A stretch of 64,000 bases of DNA, taken from assembly GCF_021228125.1 (NCBI RefSeq), contig NZ_JAJQQS010000002.1, positions 986,754-1,050,753 on the forward strand, written 5' to 3'. Position 1 is the stretch's first letter. Each line of letters starts with the position of its first letter. Below are positions 3,935 to 60,096 of this stretch, in pieces. Below the pieces are notes generated by a model. The model was not told where the DNA came from. It worked only from the letters and a program-made list of their open reading frames with translations, and did no database searches. Origin of the DNA: Streptomyces albireticuli (GTDB lineage Bacteria > Actinomycetota > Actinomycetes > Streptomycetales > Streptomycetaceae). A program made the translations under genes and the position numbers.

Positions 3935-4100
3935 CTCGACGTGACCGGCGACCAGAGTCTCCTGGCTCCCGGATCGGCGTCGTTCCGGCCTTCCGGCCCG
4001 GCGGGCGGACCGTGGCCCTCGGTGGAGGACGCTCCCCGGTGACAGTGGCGGGACCGCGCCGGACTCGCACCGGCTTCCTCTGCTGTCGCCGTTTGGCCCC
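3935..4100 (-). promoter_or_regulatory. Cobalamin riboswitch upstream of the cob operon
   Basis: On the minus strand the conserved core is readable: GAAGCCGGTGCGAGTCC, then GCGGTCCCGCCACTGTC, and about 65 bases later the 3' B12-box-like GAGCCAGGAGACTC. These are the signature blocks of the adenosylcobalamin riboswitch (AdoCbl class). The element lies 115-280 bases upstream of cobD on the same strand, so it most likely shuts off the operon when cobalamin is plentiful. The boundaries are approximate. The GC-rich inverted sequence CCAGGGCGCGGACCCTG just downstream may form part of the expression platform. Confidence 0.93.
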
Positions 4101-6785: not shown

Positions 6786-7913
6786 ATGCGTGTACGTCCA
6801 GTGGCGGCCACGGCCGTCACCACCCTCATAGGTGCCGGAGCGGCCGCGGTGGCGGCCGGGCGGTACGCGAGCGACGTGGCCCTCCGCCCCGTCCCCGGCC
6901 GCCCGCTCCCCGGCGAGCCGGCGCTCACCGTCCACGCCGTCGACGGCGACCGCGTCACCCTCACCCGCTCCCTCGCCGCGCTGCGCCGCGGCACCTACGG
7001 CCTGACCGCGCGCGGCCTGCACGCTGTCGTCGGCCCCGTCGTCGAGGACGCCCCGCACCCCGCCGACTGCGTCGTACGCCGCCTGGAGCGCGTCACCCAC
7101 GGCGTCCTGGAGCCCGGCGCCAAGGTATGGCTCACGCCCCAGGTCCACCTCGGCAACCCCCGCGACGCCCTCGGCCTCGACCACGCCGACGTCGCCGTCC
7201 CCGGCGAGCTGGGACCCCTGCCCGCCTGGTTCGTCCCCGGCGACCGCGACACCTGGGTCATCACCGTGCACGGGCTGGGCACCACCCGGGAACACCCCAT
7301 GGTCGTGATGCCCTTCCTGCACGGGCAGCGGCTCCCCGTCCTCGACCTCGGCTACCGCGGTGACCCGGGCGCGCCCCGCTCCCCGGACGGCATAGGCCGC
7401 TTCGGCGCCGCGGAATGGCGCGACCTCGACGCGGCCGTCCGCTACGCCGTGCGCTACGGCGCCCGCCACGTCGTCCTGCACGGCTGGTCCACCGGCGCCA
7501 CCATGGCCCTCCTCGCGGCCTCGGAGTCCGGCGTGCGTGACCGCGTCGGCGGCCTCGTCCTCGACTCGCCGGTCCTCGACTGGCCCGCCACGCTGCGCGC
7601 CCTCGCCGCCGCCCGCCGGCTGCCCGCCGCGCTGGTCCCGCTCGCCGTCCGCGCCGCGCAGGGCAGGACGGGCCTGGACCCCGACGCCCTCGCCCGCGCC
7701 GTCGACCCCGCGCGCCCCGACGTGCCGACCCTGATCGTGCACGGCCCCGACGACACCCTCGCGCCCTGGCGGGCGTCCCGCGAACTCGCCGCCCGCCGCC
7801 CCGGCCTGATCCATCTGCACGCCGTCCGGCACGCCCCCCACGCCGCGATGTGGAATGCCCACCCGGCCGGTTACGAGGAGTCCCTGCGCCGATTCCTCAT
7901 ACCGCTGATGTGA
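6786..7913 (+). CDS. Alpha/beta hydrolase family protein
   Basis: A 375-residue hydrolase with an N-terminal hydrophobic segment (about residues 8-26) that probably anchors or exports it. The core shows the oxyanion-hole strand VITVHGLGTTREHP, the nucleophile elbow HGWSTGA (Ser in the middle), the acid loop VHGPDDTLAPW and a late histidine in RHAPHAAMWN. These complete a Ser-Asp-His triad. The substrate is unknown; similar proteins are annotated as lipases, esterases or peptidases. It is flanked by the palindromic element and by a conserved gene of unknown role, with no clear operon. Confidence 0.9.
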   Translation: MRVRPVAATAVTTLIGAGAAAVAAGRYASDVALRPVPGRPLPGEPALTVHAVDGDRVTLTRSLAALRRGTYGLTARGLHAVVGPVVEDAPHPADCVVRRLERVTHGVLEPGAKVWLTPQVHLGNPRDALGLDHADVAVPGELGPLPAWFVPGDRDTWVITVHGLGTTREHPMVVMPFLHGQRLPVLDLGYRGDPGAPRSPDGIGRFGAAEWRDLDAAVRYAVRYGARHVVLHGWSTGATMALLAASESGVRDRVGGLVLDSPVLDWPATLRALAAARRLPAALVPLAVRAAQGRTGLDPDALARAVDPARPDVPTLIVHGPDDTLAPWRASRELAARRPGLIHLHAVRHAPHAAMWNAHPAGYEESLRRFLIPLM

Positions 7914-22195: not shown

Positions 22196-23209
22196 TCAGC
22201 CGTTCGTGGCCGTGCCCGCCTTGCCGCCCGGGGCCGGGACCACGTGCGAGAGCAGCTGCATGAACGCCGCCTCGTCGATCACCGGAGTGCCGAAGGAGCG
22301 CGCCTTGGTGGTCTTGGAGGTGGGGGAGTCGGGGTCGTTGGTCACCAGGAGGCTGGTGAGCCGGGACACACTCGTGGCGACGTGCAGCCCGGCCTCGACG
22401 GCCCGGTCCTCCAGGAGCTCGCGGTCGACGGAGGTGTCACCGGAGAACGCCACCCGCATGCCCTGAATGAGCTGTTCACCCGATTTATACCTACCGGGGT
22501 TGGGGTACGGGCAGGCCGGCCGCTTACGGCTCGGCCGCCAGGTCCCCGACCGGTAGGACGGCTGATAGCCGACCGACGCGGGGCGCGGGGCCGCGGGACC
22601 GTCGGACCACTCCGTCAGCGGCTGGCAGGCCAGCAGCGGCAGCCGCAGCCCCGCCTCGGCCGCCAGCCGCAGGCTGGGCCGGAACGCCTCGGCGAGCACC
22701 CGGGCGTCGTCCAGGGCGTGGTGGGCGCGCTGCTGCACGACGCCGTAGTGCGCGGCCAGGGACTCAAGCTTGTGATTGGGCAGCGGCAGGCGCAGCTCCT
22801 TGGAGAGCGCGATGGTGCACAGCCGCTGGCGCACCGGGGCGGTCACCCGCGCGCGGGCGTACTCACGGGCGAGCATCGACCAGTCGAAGGCGGCGTTGTG
22901 CGCGACCAGGACCCGGCCGTCGAGCCGCTTCGCCAGCTCACCGGCGATCTCCGGGAAGAGCGGCGCGTCGGAGAGGACTTCGGTGGTGAGGCCGTGGATC
23001 CACACCGGACCGGGGTCCCGCTGCGGGTTGACCAGGGTGTACCAGTGGTCCTCCACCCGGCCTCTGGCGTCCAGCTGATAGACCGCGGCCGACACTATCC
23101 GGTCGTCCCGGGCGAGCCCGGTGGTCTCCACGTCGACGACCGCGTACCCCTCGGGATAGGCGGCCGGCCACGGGGTCGGCGAATCGGCGGCGGCGCGGTC
23201 TACGAGCAT
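22196..23209 (-). CDS. DnaQ-like 3'-5' exonuclease with C-terminal BRCT domain
   Basis: A 337-residue protein. Residues about 20-190 are a DEDDh exonuclease: VVDVETTGLARDD (motif I), VAHNAAFDWSML (motif II) and HHALDDARVLAEAF (motif III). After a linker, residues 245-325 form a BRCT domain (GMRVAFSGDTSVDRELLEDRAVEAGLHVATSVSRLTSLLVTND). The layout suggests DNA repair or proofreading away from the main polymerase. There is no ribosome-binding site, but a TATTCT -10-like hexamer about nine bases before the ATG suggests a leaderless transcript. Confidence 0.92.
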   Translation of the reverse strand: MLVDRAAADSPTPWPAAYPEGYAVVDVETTGLARDDRIVSAAVYQLDARGRVEDHWYTLVNPQRDPGPVWIHGLTTEVLSDAPLFPEIAGELAKRLDGRVLVAHNAAFDWSMLAREYARARVTAPVRQRLCTIALSKELRLPLPNHKLESLAAHYGVVQQRAHHALDDARVLAEAFRPSLRLAAEAGLRLPLLACQPLTEWSDGPAAPRPASVGYQPSYRSGTWRPSRKRPACPYPNPGRYKSGEQLIQGMRVAFSGDTSVDRELLEDRAVEAGLHVATSVSRLTSLLVTNDPDSPTSKTTKARSFGTPVIDEAAFMQLLSHVVPAPGGKAGTATNG

Positions 23210-23334: not shown

Positions 23335-26052
23335 TCAGGAGAGCGCGGCCAGGAGGTCGCCGGCCGTGACCCGCGCCACGTCCTCGCACCCGTCGACGAG
23401 CCCGGGGAAGAGGCGGTACGCCACGCCGGTCGCCTTCTCGGGCGCGATGTCGCCCTCGCGCAGGGCGAGCAGGACGCGGCGCCCGTCGGCCGCGCGGGCC
23501 GCGCGCCCGGCGGCCTCCCCGGGGCCGCCGGCCCGCCACCGCTCCCCGGCCGCGCCCGGCACGCGCAGCCGCGCGGCGAAGGCCGCCACCTCCTCGTCCG
23601 CCCGGCGGCGGAAGACCCGCACCTCGTCCGGCGCCCGCCCGACGACGACCACCTCGTCGGCGCGCGCCGCCGCGTGCCAGCACGCCAGGTCCCACAGGCT
23701 GACGCGGGCCCCTCCGGTGAAGTACTCCCACAGCCCGAGGCCGAGCCGGCCCAGTCGCTCCGTGTGCCGCCCCGCGCTGTGGAAACCCCCATCACCCGGA
23801 AGGTGGACGTCCGTCCACAGCGCGCGGCCGTCGGCCAGGTCGACCACCATCGGCACACAGATCCGGGAGTCGCCGGTCAGGTCGAACCGCTGCCGCACCG
23901 CACGCGGGTCGTACGAGGCGTCGCGCGCCCGCCGGTCCGGCAGCGCCATGTACCCCGCGAAGGCGTCCGGCAGCGCCTCGAACGGAATGTCGTTGAAGCT
24001 CAACACGACGGGCACCGCGTAGCGGACGCCGGCCGCGGCCAGCCCGGCCGGGTCCAGGTCGACGTACTCCGTCGCGCCGTCGGGCGCCGGGGCCGACGTC
24101 AGATCGCCCGAGTGGACGGCGGCGTCGTCGCGGCGGCGCAGCGAGGTGTAGTCGCACAGGCCGGTGAACCGCCACTCCTCGTCGAAGAACACCACCGACA
24201 GATCGAGGTCCACCCGGGTGCCGGCGGGCTCCGTCCAGTGCAGGAACAGCCGCAGCACCTCGCCCTCCGGCAGCGGGAAGAAACTGCCGCGCGGCACCGC
24301 GACGAGCGAGGACGCCGCCGACCGCTCGGCGAACGGCACCGGGATCCCGGCCAGACCGGAGTCGAGCACCGCGAGGTCGAAGCGGGACTCCTTCCCCAGC
24401 CGTCGCAGCGCCTCCGCCTCCAGCAGCGCGCACACCTCCGCCACGGTCCCCCCGGGGAGGGGTGCGCGGTCGTCGTCGGCGCGGAACGGGCGGCTGACCC
24501 GCCCGCGCGGGAAGAACACCCGCCGCTCCCCGGCGAGATGCCGGCCGCGCAGCTCGCCCAGCGCGGACAGCAGGGGGCCGGGGCCCACCGACGGCAGCCC
24601 GCGCCGCAGCACCCGGCCGAGCTCCTCCGCGGGAAGGCCGGCCCCGTACCGCCGCAGCAGGTGGTCCAGCCGCCGGACCAGCTCGCCGGGCCGCTCCCCC
24701 AGCAGCCGGAGCGCCGCCGCCGGGTCGTCGCCGCGCAGCGCCTCCTCCGCCCGCGCGGCCCAGGTGCGGGCCACGATCCGGACGCGGGGCACCGAGCGGC
24801 GGACGGGCCCGCGGTCGTACAGGCCGCGCGGCCCGACCCGCACCGGGACGGTCGTGGGCCGCGCCGTCCGCGCGGTCCCGGCCCGGACGGTCACCGCCTC
24901 CGGGTACGCGGCCGCCGTGCGCAGCAGCGCCTCGCCCAGGTCGCCGGTGGCGCTGGTCTCCGTGGCGCGCAGCGTGGCGAAGGCGAGGGCCGCGCGCGGG
25001 TGGCGGGCGTGTTGCTCGTAAGGGTGAAGGACCTCGCCCGCCCGCTTCCAGGCGCGCGGGTGGCGGTGGACGTCCTCGACGAGCGCGGGGACGTCCAGGC
25101 CGTCGAGCACCGCGAGGAGCGCGCGGCGCAGGCCGCGCGGCACGCTCCGCATGCGCGGCGCCCCGCGCGGATCGGGGTCGCCGCCCGACCACACGCACAG
25201 CAGCCGCAGCACGTCCGTGGCGGTCGTCAGCAGCTCCGGCAGCCGCCGGCGGGCGGCCTCCGCGGTGCGGGCGTCGCGCAGCAGGGCGCCGAGCACCAGC
25301 GCCTTGGCCTCGCGTACGGGCACGTCGGCGGGGAGCCAGCCGAGCCCGTCGGGCGCGTGCGCCACGAGCACGGCGAGGTCCGCGCGGTCCTGGGGGGAGA
25401 GCGGTGTGCGCCGGGCCAGCAGAGCCGTGAGCTCGGCCGCCGCGTCGGCGGTCCGGGAGGAGCCGAGGCACAGCAGGCGCAGCGGCCCGCCGGGGGTTCC
25501 GGTGCGCGGCGCGTCGTGATCGCCGGGAGGAACAGGCCGCAGGAAGGGGGCCGCCCGGTCGATCCGGCGGTGGCAGATCGGGCAGCCGTTGTAGCCGGCG
25601 CCGTCCCAGCAGCTCCCGCACACCAGGTGCGCGCACGGGGACACCGGGCGCACCCGGCCCGCCGTGCCGCACAGCACGCACGGCTGCTCGGGCTCCTGGA
25701 GCAGCAGGGCGAAGACCCGGTCCACGTACAGGGCGTCGGTGTCCCGGGGAACCGAGCCGGGGAAGCCGCCGAAGAGCGGCATGTGCGTACGGTCCGCGCC
25801 CAGCAGTTCGTCGATCTCCCGCAGCAGCCGCCGTCCGGCCTCGCCGAGGGCCTCGGCGCCGGCGGCGGCCAGCGCCCCGCGCAACGGCTCCGTCAGGGCG
25901 TACCCCCGGTCGAGCAGCTCCGCCTCCAGGGCGGTCAGACCGCTGTCGGCCTTCCTCGCGGAGCGCGGCCGGAACCCCCGGGCGGTGGCCGGTTCATGGT
26001 CGACGTGGACGATCCGGGCGCGGCGGAGCAGCACGGACTGGAGTGTGGGCAC
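23335..26052 (-). CDS. RING-finger protein with TerD-like domain (MXAN_6230/SCO0854-type family)
   Basis: A 905-residue protein. Residues 125-160 hold a complete C3HC4 RING pattern: Cys125-x2-Cys128, Cys140-x-His142, Cys145-x2-Cys148, Cys157-x2-Cys160. A long Leu/Arg/Ala-rich helical middle follows. Around residues 580-760 a TerD-like domain is visible (RLFLHWTEPAGTRVDLDLSVVFFDE, then AVHSGDLTSAPAPDGATEYVDLD), and a final 100-residue region ends VTAGDLLAALS. TerD domains bind calcium in tellurite- and stress-response systems. RING fingers are rare in bacteria and mediate ubiquitin transfer in eukaryotes; whether this one does is unknown. The GTG start follows GGGGGAA. Confidence 0.9.
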   Translation of the reverse strand: MPTLQSVLLRRARIVHVDHEPATARGFRPRSARKADSGLTALEAELLDRGYALTEPLRGALAAAGAEALGEAGRRLLREIDELLGADRTHMPLFGGFPGSVPRDTDALYVDRVFALLLQEPEQPCVLCGTAGRVRPVSPCAHLVCGSCWDGAGYNGCPICHRRIDRAAPFLRPVPPGDHDAPRTGTPGGPLRLLCLGSSRTADAAAELTALLARRTPLSPQDRADLAVLVAHAPDGLGWLPADVPVREAKALVLGALLRDARTAEAARRRLPELLTTATDVLRLLCVWSGGDPDPRGAPRMRSVPRGLRRALLAVLDGLDVPALVEDVHRHPRAWKRAGEVLHPYEQHARHPRAALAFATLRATETSATGDLGEALLRTAAAYPEAVTVRAGTARTARPTTVPVRVGPRGLYDRGPVRRSVPRVRIVARTWAARAEEALRGDDPAAALRLLGERPGELVRRLDHLLRRYGAGLPAEELGRVLRRGLPSVGPGPLLSALGELRGRHLAGERRVFFPRGRVSRPFRADDDRAPLPGGTVAEVCALLEAEALRRLGKESRFDLAVLDSGLAGIPVPFAERSAASSLVAVPRGSFFPLPEGEVLRLFLHWTEPAGTRVDLDLSVVFFDEEWRFTGLCDYTSLRRRDDAAVHSGDLTSAPAPDGATEYVDLDPAGLAAAGVRYAVPVVLSFNDIPFEALPDAFAGYMALPDRRARDASYDPRAVRQRFDLTGDSRICVPMVVDLADGRALWTDVHLPGDGGFHSAGRHTERLGRLGLGLWEYFTGGARVSLWDLACWHAAARADEVVVVGRAPDEVRVFRRRADEEVAAFAARLRVPGAAGERWRAGGPGEAAGRAARAADGRRVLLALREGDIAPEKATGVAYRLFPGLVDGCEDVARVTAGDLLAALS

Positions 26053-59621: not shown

Positions 59622-60096
59622 GCTCCTCCCGCCCCGACAACCCCACCGCCAGAACCATCGCATCCCCCGGAGACGGCTCGAACGGCAGCGCCAGCATCCG
59701 CATACCGGCCTGCTCCGGCGTCCGGTCCGCCTTCCGGTGGTTGTCCTCCGCGCACGCCGCCACCGTGTTCAGCCAGCTGTCCGCGCCCCCGCGCGACCTC
59801 GGCACCACGTGGTCCACCGTCGTCGCCCGCCGCCCGCAGTACACGCAGCGGTGCCCGTCCCGTACGAGCACGCCCCGCCGCGACCAGGGCGCCCGTCTTC
59901 GGAACGGCACCCGTACGTACCGGCAGAGTCTGATCACCTGGGGCACCGGCACTTCGACGGTCGCGCCCCGCACCCGCAGCTCCGGCCTGGCCCGCTCGAC
60001 GACGGCCTTGCCCTGGAGCACCAGCACCACCGCCCGTCGCAGCGACACCGTCGCCAGCGGCTCGAAGCTCGCGTTGAGGACCAGCGTCTCCCGCAT
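59584..60096 (-). CDS. HNH endonuclease family protein
   Basis: A 170-residue protein. The N-terminal MRETLVLNASFEPLATVSLRRAVVLVLQGKAVV block and the HNH nuclease motif RCVYCGRRATTVDHVVPRSRGGADSWLNTVAACAEDNHRKADRTP (CxxC zinc ligands, catalytic His) identify it as the common actinobacterial HNH protein. Its role is unknown; such proteins may nick DNA in repair or defence. The ATG follows GGGAGGTGG. The last residues (about ELFPTPPLPVTGG) and the stop come from the palindromic element. Confidence 0.9.
   Translation of the reverse strand: MRETLVLNASFEPLATVSLRRAVVLVLQGKAVVERARPELRVRGATVEVPVPQVIRLCRYVRVPFRRRAPWSRRGVLVRDGHRCVYCGRRATTVDHVVPRSRGGADSWLNTVAACAEDNHRKADRTPEQAGMRMLALPFEPSPGDAMVLAVGLSGREELFPTPPLPVTGG

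Follow-up and report, generated by a model that had tools for sequence, protein, structure and literature searches.

The 905-residue protein encoded on the minus strand at positions 23335–26052 of a 64,000-nucleotide stretch of Streptomyces albireticuli DNA (assembly GCF_021228125.1, contig NZ_JAJQQS010000002.1; hereafter the window) combines a complete RING finger with a divergent TerD domain. We propose that this RING-TerD protein likely handles damaged RNA, and does not attach ubiquitin, because many of its viral relatives lie among transfer RNA (tRNA) genes and a few of its bacterial relatives lie beside RNA-repair genes. More specifically, a Ro60-like helical array together with a vWA-like end would bind RNA that is damaged or structured, chiefly tRNA, and would serve as the platform on which such RNA is repaired or degraded, a reading to which we assign a probability of roughly 0.4. 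The protein is a full-length member of NF041916 (MXAN_6230/SCO0854 family RING domain-containing protein), scoring 1087.9 bits against a cut-off of 600 and spanning positions 2–842 of the 842-position profile. Within its genome the protein has this single match, and it shares 98% identity with a Streptomyces albireticuli protein. The sequence-only reading had called the role of the protein unexplored. The literature searches listed no study of the family and none linking the family, TerD and RNA repair; an earlier report of a RING-TerD fusion may exist.

Relatives detected by tblastn reside in phages and plasmids of several phyla, and 214 of 7,992 scored candidate proteins match the relative from Variovorax. 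Among 79 viral loci, analyzed with 10-kb flanks as fetched, 58 carry tRNA genes, 50 of them within 3 kb of the family gene. These loci hold 593 tRNA genes in 1,489 kb, 589 of which lie on the strand of the family gene, and their density is 0.37–0.61 per kb within 5 kb of that gene versus 0.23 at 9–10 kb. Random viral control loci contained tRNA genes in 3/24 and 3/80 cases, and thymidylate-synthase loci in 0/5; in control contigs longer than 40 kb 2/19 loci did so, yet with 32 tRNA genes in 147 kb. As for RNA-repair genes, RNA ligase (8 loci), Pnkp (10), Thg1 (7) and RtcB (1) together mark 25 of the 79 viral loci and none of 29 controls, and RlaP occurs in three more (1/109 controls). When the loci are collapsed at 90% nucleotide identity, 61 clusters remain, 44 with tRNA genes and 17 with repair genes. 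Individual examples include the relatives in Rhodococcus phage Weasels2 (RtcB and tRNA genes nearby), Rhodobacter phage RcXuper (RlaP and tRNA genes nearby) and phage XacN1 (an annotated nucleotidyltransferase 1.4 kb away), as well as a Vibrio plasmid relative with an RNA ligase 3.2 kb away.

Other genes also recur at these viral loci (L154–L232). Genes of the type that salvages nicotinamide adenine dinucleotide are among them: a NAMPT-type gene is present in 11/79, and a nucleotidyltransferase-NUDIX gene was counted in 8 loci when clustering was used and in 3 when tblastn was used. An HNH endonuclease recurs in 12/79 by tblastn. Positions 59656–60084 of the window encode a stretch 32% identical to this endonuclease over 154 residues (E = 3.6e-14).

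A handful of bacterial loci share the RNA-repair context. The family gene of Variovorax sp. WDL1 points away from a minus-strand cluster in which rtcR (PF06956, E = 1.7e-66) is the fourth gene, and an exact match to the sigma-54 consensus pattern lies at 7710–7725 of that locus, ending 56 bp before the ATG of the family gene. With up to one mismatch allowed, 0.24 occurrences of this pattern would be expected in the locus, which contains no RtcB match. In Nonomuraea dietziae, whose relative has a full RING, the last 4 bp of the RING gene overlap the start of an RlaP gene (E = 7.2e-31), which is followed by a second, similar-looking frame. In Actinacidiphila glaucinigra, also with a full RING, RtcB lies 3.2 kb downstream. 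The RNA-repair queries found nothing in the other 78 of 80 actinobacterial loci (80 of 88 stretches, as listed), nor in the window. An RNA-handling platform is likely the most economical account of these data, with a context that is plain in viruses and a few bacteria and absent or lost in Streptomyces.

The protein itself suggests how such a platform might be built. Residues 583–770 (23743–24306, minus strand) form a divergent TerD-superfamily domain, a relation seen in profile-profile comparison, in structure and in cross-matches of the family profile to TerD genes. The TerD-like domain claimed by the sequence-only reading thus stands at the level of fold and superfamily but not of Pfam family, since PF02342 (TerD) has no match in the window protein at E up to 1. 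Within the domain, D615, D617, L618 and S619 of the DLDLS motif (residues 615–619; 24196–24210, minus strand) are invariant in a 43-row family alignment that includes RING-less sequences, as is the HSGD motif (residues 647–650; 24103–24114, minus strand). DLDLS is presumably the TerD calcium-site motif.

N-terminal to this domain, the structure model predicts a helical repeat region (residues 190–505; 24538–25485, minus strand) that resembles the HEAT array of Ro60. A strand at residues 560–569 (24346–24375, minus strand), modeled at 560–564 and containing D564, invariant in the same alignment, may correspond to beta-1 of a vWA-like domain, and a C-terminal alpha/beta region (residues 780–905; 23338–23715, minus strand), which falls inside the range of the Ro60 structural alignment, is possibly the remainder of that domain. 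In the structure search, Ro60 chains hold ranks 7–13, with only rows that align to the TerD part placed above them. The DxSxS motif of the vWA metal-ion-dependent adhesion site (MIDAS) is absent, as residues 561–570 read AVLDSGLAGI.

A relation to Ro60 by sequence was tried and rejected: hhalign comparisons of 43 and 164 family sequences with 1, 8 or 9 TROVE proteins were not significant, and the scanned protein (P0002) has no TROVE Pfam match. No Rfam Y RNA was found in the window or in seven loci of relatives. Separately, six Streptomyces genomes (L138–L141, L143 and L144) have a TerD-domain gene within about 4 kb of a TROVE-vWA (Ro-like) gene; the pairs are not operonic, since the two genes differ in strand or are separated by unrelated genes, and we judged this proximity weak.

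The TerD fold and motifs would also suit a Ter-type stress sensor, in which calcium or a nucleotide-like ligand is bound by TerD, partners are brought in through the RING and the helices when the cell meets envelope, metal or phage stress, and RNA plays no direct part. PMC7159879 counts TerD among the nucleotide-binding domains of conflict systems. Some neighborhoods fit this account, with a TerB gene near a Deinococcus relative, VWA-like and MoxR genes near another relative, and DISARM and caspase genes near a third; some further relatives have no telling neighbors. The tRNA and RNA-repair context of the relatives speaks against it, as does the position of the RING-TerD gene, at least about 40 kb away from all PF02342 matches in the window genome. 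We regard a stress sensor as a serious candidate that probably falls short.

Immediately downstream of the RING-TerD gene, after 125 bp, the window encodes a DEDDh 3'-5' exonuclease with a BRCT domain (22196–23209, minus strand; PF00929, E = 6.1e-24; PF16473, E = 2e-6; PF00533, E = 6.7e-6). This gene is found downstream on the same strand in 40/80 actinobacterial loci, not all from Streptomyces, with a median gap of 119 bp measured between tblastn ends. The arrangement and the BRCT domain suggest that the RING-TerD protein could be a structural scaffold for the exonuclease in the processing of DNA and not RNA. However, the exonuclease was not found in the other 40 loci, some of which are ended by a contig edge, and where present it belongs to a conserved Streptomyces block, mostly also with SURF1 and SDR and often with GH15 genes, which makes a scaffold improbable. 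We also considered and rejected a conserved actinobacterial operon partner: across 43 clustered loci no neighbor family recurs across lineages, and the 40 exonuclease loci share a vertically inherited Streptomyces block. Elsewhere in the window, positions 3956–4079 (minus strand) match the Cobalamin riboswitch aptamer (Rfam RF00174, 62.4 bits).

The RING finger occupies residues 125–170 (25543–25680, minus strand), with its ligands at 125–160. The sequence-only reading had placed a complete C3HC4 signature near residue 125, and both parts of this observation hold: the spacing is exactly as claimed, with PF14447 (E = 1.4e-19; the only match in the genome) and PF13920 both above their cut-offs, and the eight zinc ligands are conserved in RING order in 81/85 relatives. 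In the whole-protein structure model, pLDDT (predicted local distance difference test) over this stretch is only 65–74, and the VIA-align rows leave the RING fold unnamed, which is not evidence that it is missing. The surface that would face a ubiquitin-conjugating (E2) enzyme is also retained, with L at C2-1 in 74/81 RINGs and an aromatic residue (W, F or Y) at C6+1 in 75/81, counts in which the pattern misplaced C7 in L099 and probably also in four similar RINGs. L099 and four other Streptomyces loci (L100, L102, L104 and L105) have RINGs with extra cysteines after C6, e.g., CCEDC; of these, L099 alone was read as far as the CPIC pair that comes later.

Across the family, the RING exists in three states. 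Among 246 Streptomyces genomes (three candidates scored per genome), 35 carry the RING form above cut-off and 70 have weaker matches only; most of these 70 appear to hold a sister protein without the RING stretch and a few match in small pieces, and most of the listed second pieces start at profile position 170–175, past the RING. With all candidates scored, RING form and sister coincide in one of the 35 RING genomes, whereas 10 would be expected (35 x 70/246, uncorrected for kinship). S. hiroshimensis seems to carry both. In G468, the one genome of the 35 that carries both forms, the RING-less sister (C2:202622-203744) is interrupted by a TAG. The 164 aligned family proteins divide into 34 with the complete set of eight ligands, 68 with the second-site pattern only (among them P0060, a RING with C125 replaced by W) and 62 with neither. 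Wider relatives, taken as the Variovorax protein plus the 120 top-scoring proteins among its 214 matches, display the C3-H4-C7-C8 pattern alone in 67/121 cases and neither pattern in 54/121. Judging from these sequences, the wider family can do without the RING, because sisters lack it and all 121 wider relatives have half a RING or none. On a tree built without the RING columns, the three states need 4 changes, versus at least 64 in 200 shuffles. This tree is built from sequences returned by searches and has weak deep support; within its sample, which does not include Myxococcus (also cited in the family name), the full RING belongs to one actinobacterial clade.

The distribution of possible conjugation partners gives no support to a link with ubiquitin. 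Of the two E2 families searched, PF14461 matches 0/35 RING-bearing Streptomyces genomes, with positive-control matches in 5/296 genomes of the phylum, and PF00179 likewise matches 0/35 but nothing anywhere as a control, so that its absence is not shown. Pup is present in 19/19 genomes tested, 10 with the RING form and 9 without. The sequence-only interpretation is supported in part: its two domains are real, and the unexplored role in protein modification that it proposed gives way to a likely role in RNA repair. Some observations do favor a RING E3 ligase moving a ubiquitin-like protein: the complete C3HC4 ligands; the nearest PDB sequences, which are the RINGs of CBL, IAP and RNF4; and the conserved hydrophobic and aromatic E2-facing positions, whose retention leaves room for a hidden conjugation partner. 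The only hint of ubiquitin-type processing seen is a Mov34/MPN/PAD-1 family gene (L236, 14891–16079) about 5.7 kb from a Hymenobacter relative. The actinobacterial neighbor clusters, being unannotated, neither show nor exclude conjugation genes. Given the E2 result in the RING genomes, the half or missing RING in all 121 wider relatives examined and the RING-less sisters in other genomes, a ligase is very improbable.

Returning to the RNA-handling platform, the parts of the protein may play three roles: (I) the helical array would bind RNA, (II) TerD would tune the array through calcium or a nucleotide-like ligand, and (III) the RING would be a zinc-stabilized site at which a partner docks; in Streptomyces this partner might be the DEDDh exonuclease encoded next to it. 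More speculatively, and on balance doubtful as a whole, the family could be a second, widespread class of RNA-repair platforms resembling Ro60, in which a TerD sensor replaces the MIDAS loop of a vWA-like domain and the zinc module is nothing, half a RING or a full RING; bacteria and tRNA-rich phages would use it to guard or mend tRNAs, under RtcR in at least one lineage. If so, TerD, whose chemistry is largely unexplained, would gain a job in RNA repair, and a bacterial RING would be used outside ubiquitin signaling. For a family that so far had a name but no explanation, the analysis supplies an RNA-repair hypothesis that can be tested. It also ties a TerD-bearing family to viral tRNA islands, and the three natural zinc states offer a way to ask about the function of a bacterial RING in the places where an E2 has not been found.

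Compared with known systems, NF041916 is a family name without a stated function, to which the present analysis adds a TerD domain, a Ro60-like model and the finding that relatives occur in an RNA-repair context. The phage family phrog_33734, whose function the database does not state, includes the Weasels2 protein (1267.8 bits) but matches the window protein in its TerD part only (residues 572–763, E = 2.1e-41), and a PADLOC search with three proteins at E up to 0.01 gave no match. In Salmonella, according to PMC7790460, rtcR is the neighbor of the rtcBA operon and is oriented against it, and the operon also holds rsr, the Ro60 homolog, and Y RNAs (rsr-yrlBA-rtcBA); RtcR controls this operon and is switched on by tRNA fragments. 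The Variovorax locus is alike in that the family gene has a sigma-54-type site in front of it and points away from the rtcR cluster, and differs in lacking an RtcB match; tblastn detects none of these genes in the window. Relative to the TerD superfamily (PF02342; structures 3ibz and 2kxt), TerD is here one domain of a 905-residue protein. Relative to Ro60/Rsr (TROVE and vWA; 1yvp, 2nvo and 9nfa), the window protein has no significant sequence similarity and no MIDAS, and its TerD domain is predicted to sit inside, between the helical array and the alpha/beta tail.
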